Of a stretch of DNA of 64,000 bases, positions 34,639 through 44,027 are shown in pieces. Within the stretch, counting starts at the first letter, position 1. Every line of letters begins with the position of its first letter. The translations under genes and the position numbers were made by a program. This DNA comes from Metallumcola ferriviriculae (GTDB lineage Bacteria; Bacillota; JADQBR01), in NCBI RefSeq assembly GCF_035573695.1, contig NZ_CP121694.1, positions 2,332,501 to 2,396,500 on the forward strand, in the 5' to 3' direction. The notes beneath the pieces are model-generated. The model made no database searches. It was not told the DNA's origin and saw only the letters and a program-made list of their open reading frames with translations.

Positions 34639-34883
34639 AAAAAAAGACCCTCATCCCAAAGGGACGAAAGTCTTGTTTCCGCGGTACCACCCTTGTAGAT
34701 TTAAAAAGATAATTCATTTTAAACCCACTCTAATCAGTTAACGCCTGACTTCGGACCGATTCATCACCGATCAGCTCCAGGGCGGCCTAAGCAGCATCTC
34801 TTTACCGGGCTCTCACCATTTTCCCGACTCGCTTTAAAGTACCTGCCGCTAATCTTCCCGTTCACAGCTTATTTTTATAAATT
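34639..34883 (-). promoter_or_regulatory. T-box leader upstream of the AsnC/aminotransferase operon
   Basis: Minus-strand leader from the predicted start at about 34883. The T-box sequence AAGGGTGGTACCGCGG lies at 34679-34694. The terminator stem (34639-34676) starts AAGACTTTCGTCCC and ends in seven T. Stem I with the GAGTCGGG..GGTGAGAG..CCCGG apical part is visible, followed by CTGGAGCTG at about 34772-34780. Uncharged tRNA would stabilise the antiterminator. The specifier is ambiguous; GCC (34784-34786) just before CTGGAG would mean alanine, but pairing of GCGGC with GCCGC competes with that reading. Confidence 0.93.
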
Positions 34884-34967: not shown

Positions 34968-35034
34968 GGTGCCTGGCACCATTTAAAAATAAGTGACACC
35001 CTTTGGTGTCAGGCACCAAGGGGTGTCACTTATT
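34968..35034 (-). repeat. GGTGCC/GTGTCAGGCACC palindromes, likely doubling as the metF terminator
   Basis: A long hairpin at 34988-35034 has 21-bp arms (one G-U) around the loop TCAGG. It is followed on the minus strand by TTTTTAAATG and then by the short palindrome GGTGCCTGGCACC (34968-34980). It starts 14 nt after the metF stop, so it could end the 19-kb acs/hdr/met transcript. The words are shared with 30904-30963. Confidence 0.75.
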
Positions 35035-35048
35035 GTTTCTTATTTAAT

Positions 35049-35972
35049 TTAGGATACTTTCGGTCTGGGGTAAAGGCCGGCTTTTTCAACAATGGTGGGA
35101 ATAATTTCTTCCCAGGCCACTGCCATAATGTGCACGCCGGCGATACCTTCCATCTTCTGCAGGTGTTGAATCTGCTCTACGCAGATTTGGACACCTTCTG
35201 CTTTGGGGTCTTCTGCCTTTTCCATCCGCTCAATAATCGAATCAGGCACTATCATCCCGGATACATTCTTATTCATGTAGCGGGCTGCCTTATGGGATTT
35301 AAGCGGCATCAGGCCTGCTACAATCTTGGCTTTCTTATGCAAACCACGTTCCCGAACCATATCCATCCACCGTTCAAAGCGTTCCATGTCGAAAATACAT
35401 TGGGTCTGAATGAAGTCTGCACCAGCATTAATTTTCTTCTCCAGGCGCATTACCCTGTATTCAAAAGGGTCACCAAAGGGGTTAGCCACCGCACCAATAA
35501 GGAATTGGGGCTCACTTTCCTTCATTTCCTCACCACAGACAAATTGCTTGTCATCACGCATCTGCTTCAGTGCTGCTACCAGTTGGATAGAATCCAAGTC
35601 ATGTACATTTTTACTGGTAGGGTGGTTACCGAAAGACTGATGGTCCCCGGAAAGACAGAGCACATTTTTCACACCCAGACTGGCGGCACCCAAAAGGTCA
35701 CTCTGGATACCAATGCGGTTACGATCTCGCACGGTCATCTGGATAATGGGCTCTAATTCCTCACCTAAGACATGCACTGCCGATGCAATACTGGAAATAC
35801 GGACAATGGCAGTCTGATTATCCGTCAGGTTAGCCGCATCCACATATTCCTTCAGCATTTTGGCGTGCTCTTTAATTATTGCCGGATTCGAATGCTTCGG
35901 AGGACCAATTTCACCACTGACAACAAATTCACCTTGTTCAAAAAGTTTTTCTAATCTGCTGCCGCTCTTCAC
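35049..35972 (-). CDS. metF: Methylene-tetrahydrofolate reductase catalytic subunit
   Basis: 307 aa, FAD-containing TIM barrel that reduces 5,10-methylene-THF to 5-methyl-THF. Recognisable parts are GEIGPPKHSNP at the N-terminus, the QTAIVRISS and CLSGDHQSFGNHP segments, and GADFIQTQCIFD. It is the short MetF type that works with MetV, with no C-terminal regulatory domain. Its ATG overlaps metV by 4 nt. As the last gene of the acs/hdr operon it supplies the methyl group for AcsE. Confidence 0.94.
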   Translation of the reverse strand: MKSGSRLEKLFEQGEFVVSGEIGPPKHSNPAIIKEHAKMLKEYVDAANLTDNQTAIVRISSIASAVHVLGEELEPIIQMTVRDRNRIGIQSDLLGAASLGVKNVLCLSGDHQSFGNHPTSKNVHDLDSIQLVAALKQMRDDKQFVCGEEMKESEPQFLIGAVANPFGDPFEYRVMRLEKKINAGADFIQTQCIFDMERFERWMDMVRERGLHKKAKIVAGLMPLKSHKAARYMNKNVSGMIVPDSIIERMEKAEDPKAEGVQICVEQIQHLQKMEGIAGVHIMAVAWEEIIPTIVEKAGLYPRPKVS

Positions 35973-36640
35973 GGTATCATCACGTCCTCTCTCACGACCT
36001 TACGCGGGCCACCATCTCTGGATTTTGACCAATCTTTCGCAGGTTCAATTTCCATAAGCTTATCAAGCTGACCCAATTTCTTCATCCGGTCATAGATTAA
36101 CTGCCAAGCGCATTCAACATCCTGATTAATTTCACACTTACCATCCTGGGAACCGCCGCAGGGGCCGTTCAGGATAGATTTGGAGCAGCGAATAATCGGA
36201 CAAATGCCGCCTGTTTTATGCAGCACACATTCACCACAAAGCCCGCAGCGCTCGCCCCAAACACCGTGCTCCATCGCACCACCGGCAAACTTGGTATTAA
36301 GTGCAGGAACTACCCACTTGTCAAAACGCTCGGCAATAAACTGAACGCCGACACCACAAGCCATGGATACCACGCAATCGATGTCATCGGTGATATACTT
36401 TTCCAACATATCCATATACTCTGGGTCACACTGACGGCTTAAGGTTACCTCTACTGTTTCCAGAGGCTTGTTTTCCTTTTGCCGCAGCATGCGCAAAGCA
36501 GAAGCCAGAACTCCTACTTCTTTTTCCCCACCGGCAAGGCAGACTGTTACACAACCACCACATCCTACTACCAGCACCTTGTTCGCATCTTCGATAAGTT
36601 TAGCAACTTCAGCGATAGATTTTCCCTGAGCAACAATCAT
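35969..36640 (-). CDS. metV: MetV, zinc/Fe-S accessory subunit of methylene-THF reductase
   Basis: 223 aa with an N-terminal CGGCVTVCLAGG, a central CDPEYMD region, and a C-terminal CGLCGECVLHKTGGICPIIRC..NGPCGG cysteine cluster, the layout of the MTHFR C-terminal (MetV) family. In Moorella and Acetobacterium it forms a complex with MetF and passes electrons to it from partner proteins. Here MvhD and HdrA lie immediately upstream. Confidence 0.9.
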   Translation of the reverse strand: MIVAQGKSIAEVAKLIEDANKVLVVGCGGCVTVCLAGGEKEVGVLASALRMLRQKENKPLETVEVTLSRQCDPEYMDMLEKYITDDIDCVVSMACGVGVQFIAERFDKWVVPALNTKFAGGAMEHGVWGERCGLCGECVLHKTGGICPIIRCSKSILNGPCGGSQDGKCEINQDVECAWQLIYDRMKKLGQLDKLMEIEPAKDWSKSRDGGPRKVVREDVMIP

Positions 36641-36674: not shown

Positions 36675-37139
36675 TTATTCATTGCCATCAGCTTCTTTCC
36701 CGGCTGCAGCTTCCTGCCCGCTCTTGTAAGCAGGGTTGAGCGGACTGGGACCCAGCTTCCTTATTCTTTCAGTCATCTCCTGAGCGACCTCGGCAAAACG
36801 CGGTCCCATAGAACCTGAGAGGTTGAACATCTCCAACCGTTCTCCGTCAATGCCGATTTCGTCAAGAAGCTTCTTAGCTTCCTTAATCCGCCGCTTAGCC
36901 ATGATATTGCCCTTCAAAAAGTGGCAGTCCCCTTCCAGGCAGCCGGCCACGTATACCCCGTCAGCTCCCTTTTCAAAGGCCTCCAGAACTACCCGTACAT
37001 CAGTTTTGCCTGAACAGGGCAATTCCACAATACGAATGTTGGCCGGATATTGGAGCCGCATGGAACCGGCCAAGTCTGCAGCGGAGTACGCACAATAATA
37101 GCAACAAAAGGCAACTAATTTGGGTTCAAAGTCGCTCAT
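36675..37139 (-). CDS. mvhD: MvhD-like [2Fe-2S] electron-transfer subunit
   Basis: 154-aa hydrogenase delta/MvhD domain. Cysteines in FCCYYCAYSAADLAG, in ELPCSGKTD and in GCLEGDCHFLKGN fit the [2Fe-2S] site. In methanogens MvhD links hydrogenase or formate dehydrogenase to HdrA. Here there is no hydrogenase gene, so it probably joins HdrABC to MetVF. It abuts hdrA with no gap. The last 15 residues are Lys/Glu/Ala-rich. Confidence 0.92.
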   Translation of the reverse strand: MSDFEPKLVAFCCYYCAYSAADLAGSMRLQYPANIRIVELPCSGKTDVRVVLEAFEKGADGVYVAGCLEGDCHFLKGNIMAKRRIKEAKKLLDEIGIDGERLEMFNLSGSMGPRFAEVAQEMTERIRKLGPSPLNPAYKSGQEAAAGKEADGNE

Positions 37140-40100
37140 TTATAGCACCTCCGCCAGCAAGCCGTGTACTTTCTTAATGACTTGCCCATCTTTATAATGC
37201 TGCAGTTCAATTGCCTTAGCCGGACATTCGGAAACGCATGTTCCGCAGCCCTGGCACTGTACCTCATTAATTTCCGCAACAAAGTCGTCGTTAATCTTGG
37301 GTACATTATAGGGGCAGGCACGCACACAGGTAAGACATGCTGCACACTTATCCTGATCAATTTTAGCCACTACGCCGCCTACCATCAAATTATCCTTAGA
37401 TAAGATGGTACACGCTCGGGCCACCGCACCCTGAGCCTGGTAAATAGCTTCACTGACAAACTTGGGTGAATGAGCAGCGCCGCAGAGGAACAATCCTGCA
37501 GACGGGAAATCAATCGGTCCAAGTTTGGCGTGGGTCTCTACAAAGAACCTGTCTTCATTTAAAGTAGTCTTAAACATTGTACCAAGCTTTGCGATATCCT
37601 CCGGTGCCACAGTGGCTGTCGCCAGTACCACCTGGTCAGGATGCAGCACGATGTTTTCCCGGGAAGACGGGTCAAATACCTCCATCTTCAATAGCGGGTT
37701 CTCTTTATTGACCGTTTCTAAGCTGGGCTTGTTCTCCGGGTCGTACTGGATAAAGACAACACCCAGTTCCCTGGCCTGCTTGTAATACTCCTCGTAGAAA
37801 CCGTAAGTCCTGATATCGCGATAAAGTACATACGCTTCGTTTTCAGGATGTTCCGTCTTGATCTTAATCGCGTTTTTGAGAGACTGGGCACAACAGGTAC
37901 GACTGCAGTACTTTCTCTCATCGTCTCTGGAGCCGACGCACTGAATAAACACTACCTGCTTATTCTTTTTCGCATCCCATTTTCCTTCAAATAACTGCTG
38001 CTCCATTTGGACGTTGGTACAAACGCGGTCATCCTTACCAATCAGGTACTCATCAGGCACATACTCTTTCGCACCGGTAGCCACAATTACCACACCATGC
38101 TCAACCTTATGGGTATCTCGCACATGGTCCTTACCCGATTCTGCTTGGGAAATAGTAGTGGTAAAATGACCCTGGTGACCGCCGTAATCTTCAACACGGC
38201 TGTTAGTAAATACCTGAATTAAATCATTATTTTCTACTTTTTTAATTGTTTCCTCTAGAAAACCTTTTAAATCTTTTCCTTCAATAGTAGCACGCAGATT
38301 GCGAGCAAATCCGCCCAACTCGGGCTCTCTTTCCACTATGAAGGACTCATATCCCTGGCTTGACATGGATAGAGCCGCCGACATACCGGCAATACCGCCG
38401 CCCACAATCAATGCCTTGGGAACTACTGCCACCGGATGTTGATGCAGCGGTTCGTGAGTCTGTACCTTTTCAATGGCACCTCTTACCAAATCCTTTGCCT
38501 TCAGAGTAGCCGCAGGATGGTCATCCCGATGTACCCATGAACACTGGTCTCGAATATTGGCCATTTCAAACAGGTACTGGTTTAAACCGGCTTCGCGGCA
38601 TACCTCTCTAAACAACGGTTGGTGGGTGCGAATGGTACAAGAAGCTACCACTACACGGTTAAGATTATGCTCCTCCACCAGCTCTCGCATTTTCTTGGTA
38701 GTATCCTCTGAACAGGTGTAGAGGTTATCCTCGGCATACACCACTCCGGGTATAGTCTTAGCGTAGTCAACGACGCTGGGCACATCCACCACCGAGCCAA
38801 TATTAATACCACAGTGGCAGATAAATACACCTACCCGGGGTTCTTCCTGACTGACGTCCTTCTCCTCAGGATAATCTTTTCCTCTCACCAGCGTACCCCG
38901 AGCCGCAGCCAACGCACCACCGGCCGTGGCTGCCGCCGCACTGGCATTCATCACTGTCTCCGGAATATCACGGGGACCCTGGAATGCACCGGCTACATAA
39001 ATACCCGCTCTGCTGGTTTGAGTGGGATTAAGTGTCTCTGTCTCAGCAAAACCAAACTTATTCAGCTTAAAGTCAGCAATTTCTGCCAAATCGGCTGCTG
39101 ACTTAGGCGGCTGGACACCCACTGCCAATACCACCATATCAAATTCCTCGGTTACCATTTCCCCGTCCTGAAGATAACTAATATACAAATTTTTGGTAAT
39201 GGGGTCTTCCTTGACACTGGAAATCATGGTCCGAGTGTACTTAACACCCGCCTCTTTGGCAGAATCTACATACTTATCAAAGTTTTTACCATAGGAACGC
39301 ATATCCAGATAAAAAATAGTCGGTTCGATATTCTTATCGTGTTCCTTAGCGATAATTGCTTCCTTGGTAGAGTACATACAGCAGATAGATGAGCAGTACT
39401 CACCACCGTCTCGAGCGCAATCCCTGGAGCCGACACATTGGATAAAGGCGGTTTTTCCCGGTGCTTTACCGTCCGCCGGCCGTTCCACATGGCCCTTGGA
39501 AGGACCGGTAGAACTTAACAAACGCTCAAATTCCAAGCTGGTAATTACATTGTCATAGACGCCATAACCATATTCACCGGTCTTTTCCGCATCAAAGAGG
39601 TCATAACCGGGTACCAAAATCATGGAGCCCACATCTAATTCTACAGTTTCCTCTTCCTGCCAGTGCTGCACAGCATTCTTTTTACACACTGCTTCACACT
39701 GGAGACATTCAGAGCAAATACCGCAATTCAAGCACCGTTTTGCTTCTTCTACGGCCTGTTCCTCACTAAAGCCCTGATACACCTCACCGAAATCACTGCC
39801 TCTATTGGCCGCATCAGCCATACCCTGTTGTAAACGGGCACTGCCTCTAACCGGCGTTTTCAAGGGCGGGCCAAGCTTTTCTTCACGCTTAACACCTCTG
39901 CCCTGGCTCAAATCTTCACCATTGATAAAACGATCAATGGAAACAGCTGCTTCATGGGCACCTGCTACAGCATCCACTACCGATTTAGGTCCGGTGACAA
40001 TATCGCCACAAGCAAAGACACCTTCCGCTCCGGTAATTAAGCTGACCGAATCAGCTACGATGGTACCTGCCCGGGTGGTTTCAATACCGCTATTATCAGG

Positions 40101-41615
40101 AAGGAATGTAATGTCAGATGCCTGGCCGATAGCTACAATCACCATATCAGCATCAAAATCTTTCTTCACACCATCCTCAAATTGAGGGTTGAATCTTCCC
40201 TCTTCATCAAATACCGAAGCGCATTTTTTCATGGCTGCACCGGAAACCTTACCGTTACCAAGGAATTTCTCCGGTCCCCAGGAGGGATTAATGATGACAC
40301 CCTCTTCAATGGCTTCTTCAATTTCCCATTCGTGAGCAGGCATTTCGTGTCTTGCTTCCAGACAAGTCAGATTAACTTCTTCAGCACCCAGACGCAATGC
40401 AGTTCGGGATACATCAATAGCTACATTACCACCGCCAATAACCAGTACTTTCTTACCCACCGGCGGTTTTTCGCCCAGCGCAGCCTTTCTTAATAAATCA
40501 ACGCCGCCCACAATGCCTTCCTGGTCTGCACCTTCCAGTTTCAGCATGCGAGAATCCTGTGTGCCTACGGCAATCAATACCGCATTATAATCTTTTTGTA
40601 ACTGTTCTAAGCTGATATCTTTGCCTATTCTGGTATTCGGCTTAAATTCAATGTCGCCGGTACCCAGCATCCACTCAGCTTCTTTCTTCACCGATTCTTC
40701 CGGCAGCCGATAGCGGGGAATACCGCCGCGCAACATGCCGCCGGCTTCCGGCAAAGCATCAAATATAGTAACTTTATAGCCTTTTAGCGCCAAATCTTGG
40801 GCCGCAGTCAAACCGCCCGGACCGGCACCGATGACAGCAATTCGTTCTTCTCTAGCTTCCACTTCCACCTGAGGAGATAGAGCCGCTTCATCTACCCAGC
40901 CATAATCTGCAGCTGCGCGCTTCAGATAAGCAATGGCGATAGGGTCATCATATTCGGCCCGGTTACATTCACCCTCACAGGGATGATGACAGATACGACC
41001 GCAGATACCGGCAAAGGGCATCCTACGCCGCACCACTTCCAAAGCTTCTTTGAATTTACCCTGGGATATCAGTGCCACATAACCTTGGGCATTAGTGCCC
41101 GCGGGGCATGTGCTCCGACAGGGAGGCGTGCCCTTCTTTTCAATGAGAAATTTATTAGGCACAGCCTGTGGAAAACGCTTGTAAACCGCTTTCCGCGAAT
41201 CCATATTTTCATTAAATTCATTGGGGACTTCTACGGGACAGGCCTGCTCACAGTCGCCGCAGGCGGTACATTCGTTGATATCAATGTAACGCGGCTGCTG
41301 CTTAACCTTAACCTTGAAATTTCCCTCCTCGCCATCTACTTGAGTGATGGTTGAGCAGGTATAAATGTCAATGTTAGGGTGACCGAGAGTATCTGTCATC
41401 TTCGGACCCAATAAACACATAGCACATTCGTTGGTAGGGAAGGTCTTATCCAGTTGGGTCATTTTGCCGCCAACTGACGGTTCATCCGTGACCATATGCA
41501 CTAGATAACCGGCATTGGCCAAATCCTGAGCGGACTGCATTCCTGCAATACCACTACCCAACACCAAAACCGACCCCACAACTGAATTGTTTTTCTCATT
41601 TTTCATGCATCTCAC
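37140..41615 (-). CDS. hdrA: Triple-module HdrA with NfnB/GltD-like insertion
   Basis: 1,491 aa, far longer than usual HdrA (about 650-1,000). The order seen is: FAD-binding HdrA start (GSGIAGM, 20-26) with one [4Fe-4S] site at Cys116-119-122-126; an NfnB/GltD-like flavoprotein (about 166-570) with Cys cluster 205-217, FAD site GAGPGG (263-268) and NAD(P) site GGGNVA (394-399); an Fe-S segment (Cys628-644) and the rest of the first HdrA with CVGSRD and YCSSICC (727-746); then a second HdrA (about 925-1410) with CHCGINIG, GGGIAGM (1072) and YCSRTCC (1237); finally two [4Fe-4S] sites (Cys1424-1434, Cys1454-1464). It probably bifurcates electrons among NAD(P)H, ferredoxin and MetVF. GTG 41615 or ATG 41606 could be the start. 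Confidence 0.93.
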   Translation of the reverse strand: MRCMKNEKNNSVVGSVLVLGSGIAGMQSAQDLANAGYLVHMVTDEPSVGGKMTQLDKTFPTNECAMCLLGPKMTDTLGHPNIDIYTCSTITQVDGEEGNFKVKVKQQPRYIDINECTACGDCEQACPVEVPNEFNENMDSRKAVYKRFPQAVPNKFLIEKKGTPPCRSTCPAGTNAQGYVALISQGKFKEALEVVRRRMPFAGICGRICHHPCEGECNRAEYDDPIAIAYLKRAAADYGWVDEAALSPQVEVEAREERIAVIGAGPGGLTAAQDLALKGYKVTIFDALPEAGGMLRGGIPRYRLPEESVKKEAEWMLGTGDIEFKPNTRIGKDISLEQLQKDYNAVLIAVGTQDSRMLKLEGADQEGIVGGVDLLRKAALGEKPPVGKKVLVIGGGNVAIDVSRTALRLGAEEVNLTCLEARHEMPAHEWEIEEAIEEGVIINPSWGPEKFLGNGKVSGAAMKKCASVFDEEGRFNPQFEDGVKKDFDADMVIVAIGQASDITFLPDNSGIETTRAGTIVADSVSLITGAEGVFACGDIVTGPKSVVDAVAGAHEAAVSIDRFINGEDLSQGRGVKREEKLGPPLKTPVRGSARLQQGMADAANRGSDFGEVYQGFSEEQAVEEAKRCLNCGICSECLQCEAVCKKNAVQHWQEEETVELDVGSMILVPGYDLFDAEKTGEYGYGVYDNVITSLEFERLLSSTGPSKGHVERPADGKAPGKTAFIQCVGSRDCARDGGEYCSSICCMYSTKEAIIAKEHDKNIEPTIFYLDMRSYGKNFDKYVDSAKEAGVKYTRTMISSVKEDPITKNLYISYLQDGEMVTEEFDMVVLAVGVQPPKSAADLAEIADFKLNKFGFAETETLNPTQTSRAGIYVAGAFQGPRDIPETVMNASAAAATAGGALAAARGTLVRGKDYPEEKDVSQEEPRVGVFICHCGINIGSVVDVPSVVDYAKTIPGVVYAEDNLYTCSEDTTKKMRELVEEHNLNRVVVASCTIRTHQPLFREVCREAGLNQYLFEMANIRDQCSWVHRDDHPAATLKAKDLVRGAIEKVQTHEPLHQHPVAVVPKALIVGGGIAGMSAALSMSSQGYESFIVEREPELGGFARNLRATIEGKDLKGFLEETIKKVENNDLIQVFTNSRVEDYGGHQGHFTTTISQAESGKDHVRDTHKVEHGVVIVATGAKEYVPDEYLIGKDDRVCTNVQMEQQLFEGKWDAKKNKQVVFIQCVGSRDDERKYCSRTCCAQSLKNAIKIKTEHPENEAYVLYRDIRTYGFYEEYYKQARELGVVFIQYDPENKPSLETVNKENPLLKMEVFDPSSRENIVLHPDQVVLATATVAPEDIAKLGTMFKTTLNEDRFFVETHAKLGPIDFPSAGLFLCGAAHSPKFVSEAIYQAQGAVARACTILSKDNLMVGGVVAKIDQDKCAACLTCVRACPYNVPKINDDFVAEINEVQCQGCGTCVSECPAKAIELQHYKDGQVIKKVHGLLAEVL

Positions 41616-41690: not shown

Positions 41691-42578
41691 TTAAGATGCA
41701 GCCAACAAATTCAGTGAGCGCAGTAATGGAACAGGGTCTATTAAGTGTTTCTTCAGCCAATCACCGCTCCTGCCGGCACCAATTGCTAATCCTATCAACT
41801 CAGTAATATAAAAGACAGGGACCTTAGTGCCCGGACCGCCTCCGGCTTCATGCTGACGTGTGTCAAGATTGGCCTGGCACAAGGGGCAGGCCGTAACGAT
41901 GGCATCAGCACCCGCGTATTGCGCGGCGTCCACCAATTTTTTAGTTAGTGTCAGCACCAAATCCGGCTGAGAAATTGAAAAACTGCCGCCGCAGCATTCA
42001 GTTTTATGAGACCAGCGAATATTCTCGGCGCCTAAGACACCCAACAATCTGTCCAATGTCTGAGGCTGCTCCGCATTATCTTCAAAAGACACGACCTTTG
42101 CCGGTCTGGTCAAGAGACAACCGTAATAAGGAACTACTTTTAATCCGGCCAACGGCTTTGCCAAGAGGCCGGCGATTTTAGCGCTAATTTCTTCCTGGGC
42201 AAACACATCCACCACATGCCGTACTGCAATGTTTCCTTGATACTGAGCACCCATGATTTCCTGCATATCCAGATTAAGCTCTTCACTGCCTTCACCGCCG
42301 CAGCGCATATGGTGCTCAGCGGTTTTTAATAAGTTATAACATGCGGCACAAGGAACTAAAACATCATTATCCTGCTTCTCCGCCAACACCAGGTTACGCA
42401 AAGGAAGCGCATGCGCCAAGTAATCACTAGTGGAGTGAGCAGAAGTAGCGCCACAGCAATTCCAGTCCTTCAGTTCTTCAAGCTGGATACCCAGCTTTTC
42501 CAGAACCTGTTTGCTTGAAGCATTGTACTCTTCAGCAGTGGAGTGCAGTGAACACCCGGGATAGTAAGTGTACTTCAT
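41691..42578 (-). CDS. hdrB: Heterodisulfide-reductase-like subunit HdrB
   Basis: 295 aa with the duplicated CCG (CX31-39CCX35-36CxxC) cysteine domain: first set Cys9, WNCCGATSAHS and CAACYNLL; second set YGCLLTRPAK, TECCGGSFSI and CPLCQANLD. In HdrB these bind the non-cubane clusters of the active site. Its natural disulfide is absent in bacteria, so the acceptor is unknown. Its ATG overlaps hdrC by 4 nt. Confidence 0.93.
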   Translation of the reverse strand: MKYTYYPGCSLHSTAEEYNASSKQVLEKLGIQLEELKDWNCCGATSAHSTSDYLAHALPLRNLVLAEKQDNDVLVPCAACYNLLKTAEHHMRCGGEGSEELNLDMQEIMGAQYQGNIAVRHVVDVFAQEEISAKIAGLLAKPLAGLKVVPYYGCLLTRPAKVVSFEDNAEQPQTLDRLLGVLGAENIRWSHKTECCGGSFSISQPDLVLTLTKKLVDAAQYAGADAIVTACPLCQANLDTRQHEAGGGPGTKVPVFYITELIGLAIGAGRSGDWLKKHLIDPVPLLRSLNLLAAS

Positions 42579-43141
42579 CGGCTCCCCTCCTTTGCTTTGG
42601 CCTTTTCAAAAATCTGCTTAATTTCTTTCACCTGGCTAATTTTTTCCGGCAGAAACTTGAGTTTGCCTTTTTTCACAAATTCAATGCCCAAACCCATATC
42701 CTGAGTGTAAGCTTTGGTCTTTAATTTAAAACCCAACAACATACCTGCTTCATAAATTCGACCATGGCGCTGGATGGAAGCCAAGAAAGACTCATGAAAA
42801 GCCGGAACCATGGTATCGCCCAGAGCAACATTTTGTTCGGCAGCCATATCTTTTAACGCATCATTGACAGCCGAAATATCAATGCCGTTTGGGCAGCGGT
42901 CTGCACAGGTTTTACAGCAGGCACACACCCAAATGGTACGGCTTTTCAGCAATCTTTCCTGCTGACCAAGCTGCACCAATCTGACCACCTGATTGGGATT
43001 AAAGTCCATGGCAAAACTCATCGGACAACCGCCGGTACATTTCTTACACTGATAGCAGCGGCTGACGGGTTGGCCGGATTTATCCTCCAATTGCTTTAAA
43101 AAAGAAAAGGAAGGCGCTATACTTTTACCAGTACTAACCAA
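42575..43141 (-). CDS. hdrC: Heterodisulfide-reductase-like subunit HdrC
   Basis: 188 aa with two [4Fe-4S] motifs, CYQCKKCTGGCPMSF and CACCKTCADRCPNGI, the usual HdrC pattern. It passes electrons from HdrA to HdrB. It heads the hdrCBA-mvhD-metVF part of the long operon, 79 nt after acsE; its 3' end overlaps hdrB. Confidence 0.93.
   Translation of the reverse strand: MVSTGKSIAPSFSFLKQLEDKSGQPVSRCYQCKKCTGGCPMSFAMDFNPNQVVRLVQLGQQERLLKSRTIWVCACCKTCADRCPNGIDISAVNDALKDMAAEQNVALGDTMVPAFHESFLASIQRHGRIYEAGMLLGFKLKTKAYTQDMGLGIEFVKKGKLKFLPEKISQVKEIKQIFEKAKAKEGSR

Positions 43142-43220: not shown

Positions 43221-44027
<807 letters not shown>

Follow-up and report, generated by a model that had tools for sequence, protein, structure and literature searches.

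The gene hdrA, in the 64,000-nucleotide stretch of the Metallumcola ferriviriculae genome analysed here (the window), encodes a protein in which two HdrA units are joined in one chain, the first being interrupted by a module related to GltD, NfnB and StnC. We put at roughly 0.6 the probability that this protein is an orthologue of Moorella thermoacetica HdrA, which serves the type IV methylene-tetrahydrofolate (methylene-THF) reductase (HdrCBA-MvhD-MetVF) as its flavin hub, and works by the relay mechanism proposed below; its likely role is that of the NADH entry to this reductase. The preliminary description of this DNA implied that the architecture was new and put the number of flavins in known HdrA proteins at one or two. 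Both points are overtaken by the literature: the architecture is already described, and the protein belongs to a known family. The architecture was reported in 2022 for M. thermoacetica HdrA (162.8 kDa), with three predicted flavin adenine dinucleotides (FADs) and a single site for NAD(P)H (PMC9430772). Archaeal HdrA proteins that carry GltD as an insert at the ferredoxin domain followed in 2025 as ‘type III’ (PMC12054007), and a Moorella-like operon has been described in Chloroflexi (PMC5736913).

The likeness to M. thermoacetica HdrA (PMC9430772, PMC13040438) extends to domain order, operon, mass (162.8 vs 162.7 kDa) and glutamate/lysine (E/K) pairs shifted by a single residue. Counted from the first methionine, two Moorella-like rows of our alignment (L073 and L074) give E696, K750, E1204 and K1246, exactly the published M. 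thermoacetica numbers, where the window protein has 697, 751, 1205 and 1247; we took these rows as Moorella-like, and their match to the exact M. thermoacetica record is deduced from these residue coordinates. They are 65-66% identical to the window protein overall and 64-69% identical in all blocks. As in the Moorella type, the window protein has two thioredoxin reductase (TrxR)-like HdrA units, the first split by a GltD domain, an E/K pair in both units, an hdrCBA-mvhD-metVF operon, and a second unit devoid of the inserted ferredoxin domain. The HdrA of the Sporomusa ovata type IV methylene-THF reductase (PMC9430772) likewise has two TrxR-like units and the same operon partners but, unlike the window protein, is of 101 kDa, lacks the GltD module and carries the E/K pair in only one unit. 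The type III HdrA of ANME-1 and Bathyarchaeota (PMC12054007) also bears GltD at the HdrA ferredoxin domain, and NADH use was proposed there too; it is, however, a type I HdrA plus insert, whereas the window protein has two HdrA units and a metVF linkage. As a separate observation, one Moorella-like genome carries two hdrCBA-mvhD-metVF copies (L075 and L076, G260:C1) that do not differ in GltD insert or HdrA core.

The protein and its parts, all on the minus strand of the window, are as follows.

37140-41615 (-): hdrA, 1,491 residues, 162.7 kDa; double HdrA with inserted GltD module, from the open reading frame (ORF) and profile searches.
41133-41576 (-): residues 14-161, FAD-binding half of the first HdrA unit, with the earlier of the two [4Fe-4S] motifs of the inserted ferredoxin domain; aligned to 5odc_A 144-291.
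39735-41132 (-): residues 162-627, inserted GltD/NfnB/StnC-like module with two [4Fe-4S] clusters, FAD and an NAD(H) site predicted, from profile and PDB matches and from the points, near residues 180 and 620, at which identity shifts in mosaic relatives.
38898-39734 (-): residues 628-906, remainder of the first HdrA unit: its core and the other cluster motif of the split ferredoxin domain; aligned to 5odc_A 293-567.
37143-38846 (-): residues 924-1491, second HdrA unit, with N-terminal MvhD-like domain, TrxR-like domain and C-terminal pair of [4Fe-4S] sites.
40920-40922 (-): K232, equivalent of the cluster-ligand lysine K170 of StnC (glutamate in NfnB), from alignments and PMC10482914.
40356-40364 (-): C418-L419-E420, in place of the Y-R-R of NADPH-using relatives, from alignments.
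39525-39527 (-): E697, equivalent of the bifurcating-flavin residue E356, from the alignment to 5odc_A.
39363-39365 (-): K751, equivalent of K409, from the same alignment.
38001-38003 (-): E1205 of the second unit, from alignment.
37875-37877 (-): K1247 of the second unit, from alignment.

Pfam, NCBIfam and PDB searches assign residues of about 14-161 and 634-906 to HdrA, 163-567 to a GltD/NfnB/StnC-like protein and 924-1491 to a second HdrA unit, so that the module order and the two HdrA units of the preliminary description stand, as do its extra FAD/NAD(P) site and three flavin folds, which sequence matches support. Residues 163-567 are not HdrA in these profiles, and the chain is not simply an ordinary HdrA throughout. 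The best NCBIfam subfamily for the insert is PRK12771 (533.9 bits, cut-off 516, residues 151-665), while the HdrA2 and HdrA equivalog models score below threshold (914.9 bits against 1100 and 673.9 bits against 1400). In the alignment to 5odc_A, the solved HdrA of M. thermolithotrophicus, residues 14-161 correspond to template 144-291 and residues 634-906 to template 293-567; the insertion point is thus clean and lies upstream of the CVGSRD core, where the GltD-like domain had been said to interrupt the first HdrA. Because the flanks align up to template residue 291 and again from 293, we place the insert within HdrA's own inserted ferredoxin domain, where it separates the cluster motifs C116-C126 and C628-C644, both kept in every relative. 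The first of these comprises C116, C119, C122 and C126, cysteines present in all aligned rows. In the second HdrA unit the template jumps from 243 to 323 between unit positions 240 and 251. Conserved cysteine motifs suggest nine [4Fe-4S] sites by count (one each at 116-126, 628-644, 727-746, 933-993 and 1226-1242, two each at 166-217 and 1424-1464); the published count for M. thermoacetica HdrA is eight (PMC9430772), and a total of eight or nine is more than the ‘about six’ first estimated for this protein. A predicted structure of residues 2-921, built on a three-sequence alignment (mean predicted local distance difference test score 47, predicted template modelling score 0.35), was discarded.

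A chain of such length could have arisen by frameshift, mis-assembly or the chance joining of two or three genes, and its unusual length is all that speaks for this. The gene reads as one frame of 1,491 codons with no internal stop (start codon GTG; the ATG at 41606, in the same frame, has the better spacing from an AGG-rich stretch), and the same fusion of about 1,490 residues is a single ORF in about 45 of the 398 sampled genomes of the phylum, spanning about 19 family codes at 46-83% identity. The nearest relatives (82-83%) have it as the same single ORF, and full-length relatives occur in two Desulfobacterium metagenome-assembled genomes (MAGs), with an in-frame TGA after the N-terminal part at a conserved cysteine position. 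We therefore reject an artefact, the chance of which is negligible, on the grounds that a single ORF recurs across genomes. In Desulfobacterium and Syntrophobacteraceae MAGs (L005, L006, L007 and L008), GltD-inserted HdrA proteins have the in-frame TGA, probably a selenocysteine codon, at the equivalent of C67 of the window protein. Among 48 single-ORF fusions whose surroundings were examined, metV and metF lie on the same strand no more than 3.5 kb away in 35, and the full hdrCBA-mvhD-metVF set accompanies 27.

The motifs of the insert bear on its coenzyme and on the fate of the electrons. Many Rossmann folds favour NADPH when basic residues close the second beta-strand and NADH when an acidic residue is found there. 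This strand ends in YRR in the solved relatives that were aligned, including the NADPH-using Nfn and StnC proteins, and in CLE in the window protein, a motif common to the subclade that it forms with the Moorella-like rows. For M. thermoacetica HdrA, the literature cites an NADH:benzyl viologen activity of 190 U/mg. Since CLE replaces YRR and this NADH activity is on record, NADPH, suggested as donor in the preliminary description, is unlikely for the window protein, the motif of which is NADH-like; the StnC-like cluster ligand also speaks against that proposal. In StnC, the FAD of the GltD module is non-bifurcating, and lysine K170, in place of the glutamate of NfnB, is a ligand of its proximal cluster (PMC10482914). 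By alignment position K170 becomes K232 here, the site is glutamate in 5jca and 4ylf, and lysine is found at it in nearly all relatives (exceptions are L005 and L006, with histidine, and L119).

The insert might instead work as NfnB does, with NADPH as donor and the GltD flavin itself bifurcating. Its NfnB/GltD homology would fit, as would the alignment of the N5-contacting arginine of NfnB (R201) with a conserved arginine of the insert and the presence of YRR in some relatives. NfnB/NfnL of NfnAB (5jca, 4ylf) shares the fold, FAD and Fer4_20 clusters, but combines its bifurcating flavin with a glutamate ligand and YRR, unlike the insert. Given CLE throughout the subclade that includes the window protein, and K232 as in StnC, whose arginine is also conserved although its FAD does not bifurcate, we regard an NfnB-like insert as quite improbable. 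The StnC of the Sporomusa-type transhydrogenase (8oh5, PMC10482914) offers a parallel in that its GltD module, with the lysine ligand, relays into a separate bifurcating module; StnC differs in being NADPH-specific (YRR) and fused to a NuoG-like domain, whereas the GltD module here is fused to HdrA.

In the first unit, 48 of 48 relatives have the glutamate and lysine characteristic of bifurcating HdrA flavins, and the second-unit pair is variable. From this pattern and the StnC-like lysine we infer that the insert is an NADH-oxidizing relay and that the coupling flavin is the one in the first HdrA unit. NADH would donate hydride to the GltD FAD, which would act as a non-bifurcating gate from two electrons to one, as in StnC. 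The two [4Fe-4S] clusters of the module, together with those of the split ferredoxin domain on either side, would then carry electrons one at a time to the FAD of the first HdrA unit, which is the likely bifurcating or confurcating flavin. HdrC-HdrB would hand electrons to MetV-MetF, which would reduce methylene-THF, and the second HdrA unit with MvhD would provide the link to a third carrier; menaquinol has been proposed as co-reductant in recent Moorella papers. The GltD module would thereby replace the external ferredoxin-docking role of ordinary HdrA. The clean insertion, conserved operon, CLE, StnC-type lysine and invariant first-unit E/K pair are all consistent with this relay.

Two observations weigh against it. 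First, the nucleotide loop GGGNVA (GxGxxA) would indicate NADP by the rule given in PMC12054007; we judge the loop uninformative here because relatives with an aligned insert, CLE or YRR alike, share GGG[N/D][V/T]A, and GxGxxG/GxGxxA was set aside as a specificity marker. Second, the second HdrA unit of the window protein keeps its own E/K pair and could itself be the bifurcating site. Electron bifurcation, to which these residues point, might also be missing altogether: in a linear diaphorase, electrons from NADH, or from reduced ferredoxin, would only move singly through the GltD module and both HdrA flavins to MetVF. In its favour, no coupled NADH:methylene-THF activity has ever been observed, reduced ferredoxin can serve MetVF-type enzymes on their own, and electron transfer from NADH to methylene-THF is exergonic without coupling. 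Yet the first-unit pair is invariant, and an uncoupled enzyme should reduce methylene-THF with NADH in vitro, a reaction not seen for M. thermoacetica; we therefore hold the linear scheme to be possible but rather unlikely.

The genes around hdrA, in the order acsE-hdrCBA-mvhD-metVF, are the following.

43221-44009 (-): acsE-like methyltransferase gene, directly upstream, a conserved neighbour; named from ORF sequence and gene order, not from the profile scan.
42575-43141 (-): hdrC-like, TIGR03290, below cut-off.
41691-42578 (-): hdrB-like, CCG domains, PF02754 and TIGR03288.
36675-37139 (-): mvhD, PF02662, E=9.5e-50.
35969-36640 (-): metV, PF12225, E=2.2e-37.
35049-35972 (-): metF, methylene-THF reductase, PF02219, E=1.7e-43.

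These profile matches bear out the earlier placement of hdrA between hdrB and mvhD, with metVF downstream, and the link to methylene-THF reductase. The acsE-like gene stands in the same order in the operons of many relatives, and Wood-Ljungdahl genes precede the hdr-met cluster. Strong inverted repeats directly after metF (34968-35034) could terminate an acs-hdr-met transcript. Just downstream of the metF end lies a T-box leader (34657-34874, minus strand, 99.7 bits), upstream of an Lrp/AsnC-like regulator and an aminotransferase.

The genome has no NfnA partner gene among the neighbours of hdrA and an NfnA/NfnB-like pair elsewhere (L126). We count in favour of the relay that the genome scan gave no rnfC over cut-off and no [FeFe]-hydrogenase, and that Nfn-like, Stn-like and futalosine-type menaquinone genes are present (three matches over cut-off to PF02621, a menaquinone-synthesis family). 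In the same scan, dsrA gave nothing over cut-off, and a Vhu-like [NiFe] hydrogenase was found. A hydrogenase-4-like membrane complex (C1:518379-525600, L121) has a NuoD-like large subunit and is comparable to the Moorella Fdh-Ech type. In a separate hdrA (C1:1776190-1778700; L123:4191-6607), the reading frame continues through a TGA that stands in place of a cysteine codon of the FAD-domain motif (U196). The adjoining mvhD match also contains a TGA; because the genome has selB, both are probable selenoproteins.

The GltD module has a history of its own. In the tree of the HdrA parts, 29 metVF-linked fusions and one GltD-less protein form one supported clade; the GltD inserts of that clade are not monophyletic, and forcing them together costs 126 log-likelihood units (approximately unbiased test, p ~1e-111), in quick tree searches with a test clade picked after the trees were seen. 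Stand-alone GltD proteins fall among both sets of inserts in the GltD tree. Deep branches of the HdrA tree outside the metVF clade are long and were not used for claims. Sequence L085 (YRR) is about 60-80% identical to L079 (CLE) across most of residues 1-210 and 661-1110 but only 28-47% identical between about 180 and 630, a stretch over which it is 52-69% identical to L087 (YRR). This mosaic argues that GltD modules were exchanged, the direction being either way, and exchange of GltD sequence between lineages is well supported. It coincides with the difference between CLE and YRR in the L081-L085 and L087/L088 lineages, while L078 and L092 show YRR within the CLE clade, which suggests changes in place. 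A functional switch between NADH and NADPH through exchange is a prediction. We give even odds to the broader proposal that GltD is an exchangeable coenzyme cartridge, in which the lineages of one metVF-linked HdrA clade carry modules that differ in descent and in having an NADH-type (CLE) or an NADPH-type (YRR) motif, the same complex having thus been rewired between pyridine nucleotide pools. A literature search, with most subscription papers outside its reach, found no mention of GltD-module exchange, which is possibly a new point.

In the energy saving of acetogens such as Moorella, the type IV methylene-THF reductase occupies a central place, with NADH as one partner. The comparison made here yields direct tests of NADH specificity, of a StnC-like relay against an NfnB-like bifurcating insert, of the first-unit coupling flavin and of the natural swaps of coenzyme module. 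If the cartridge idea is true, the same methylene-THF reductase complex would have been moved between the NADH and NADPH pools.

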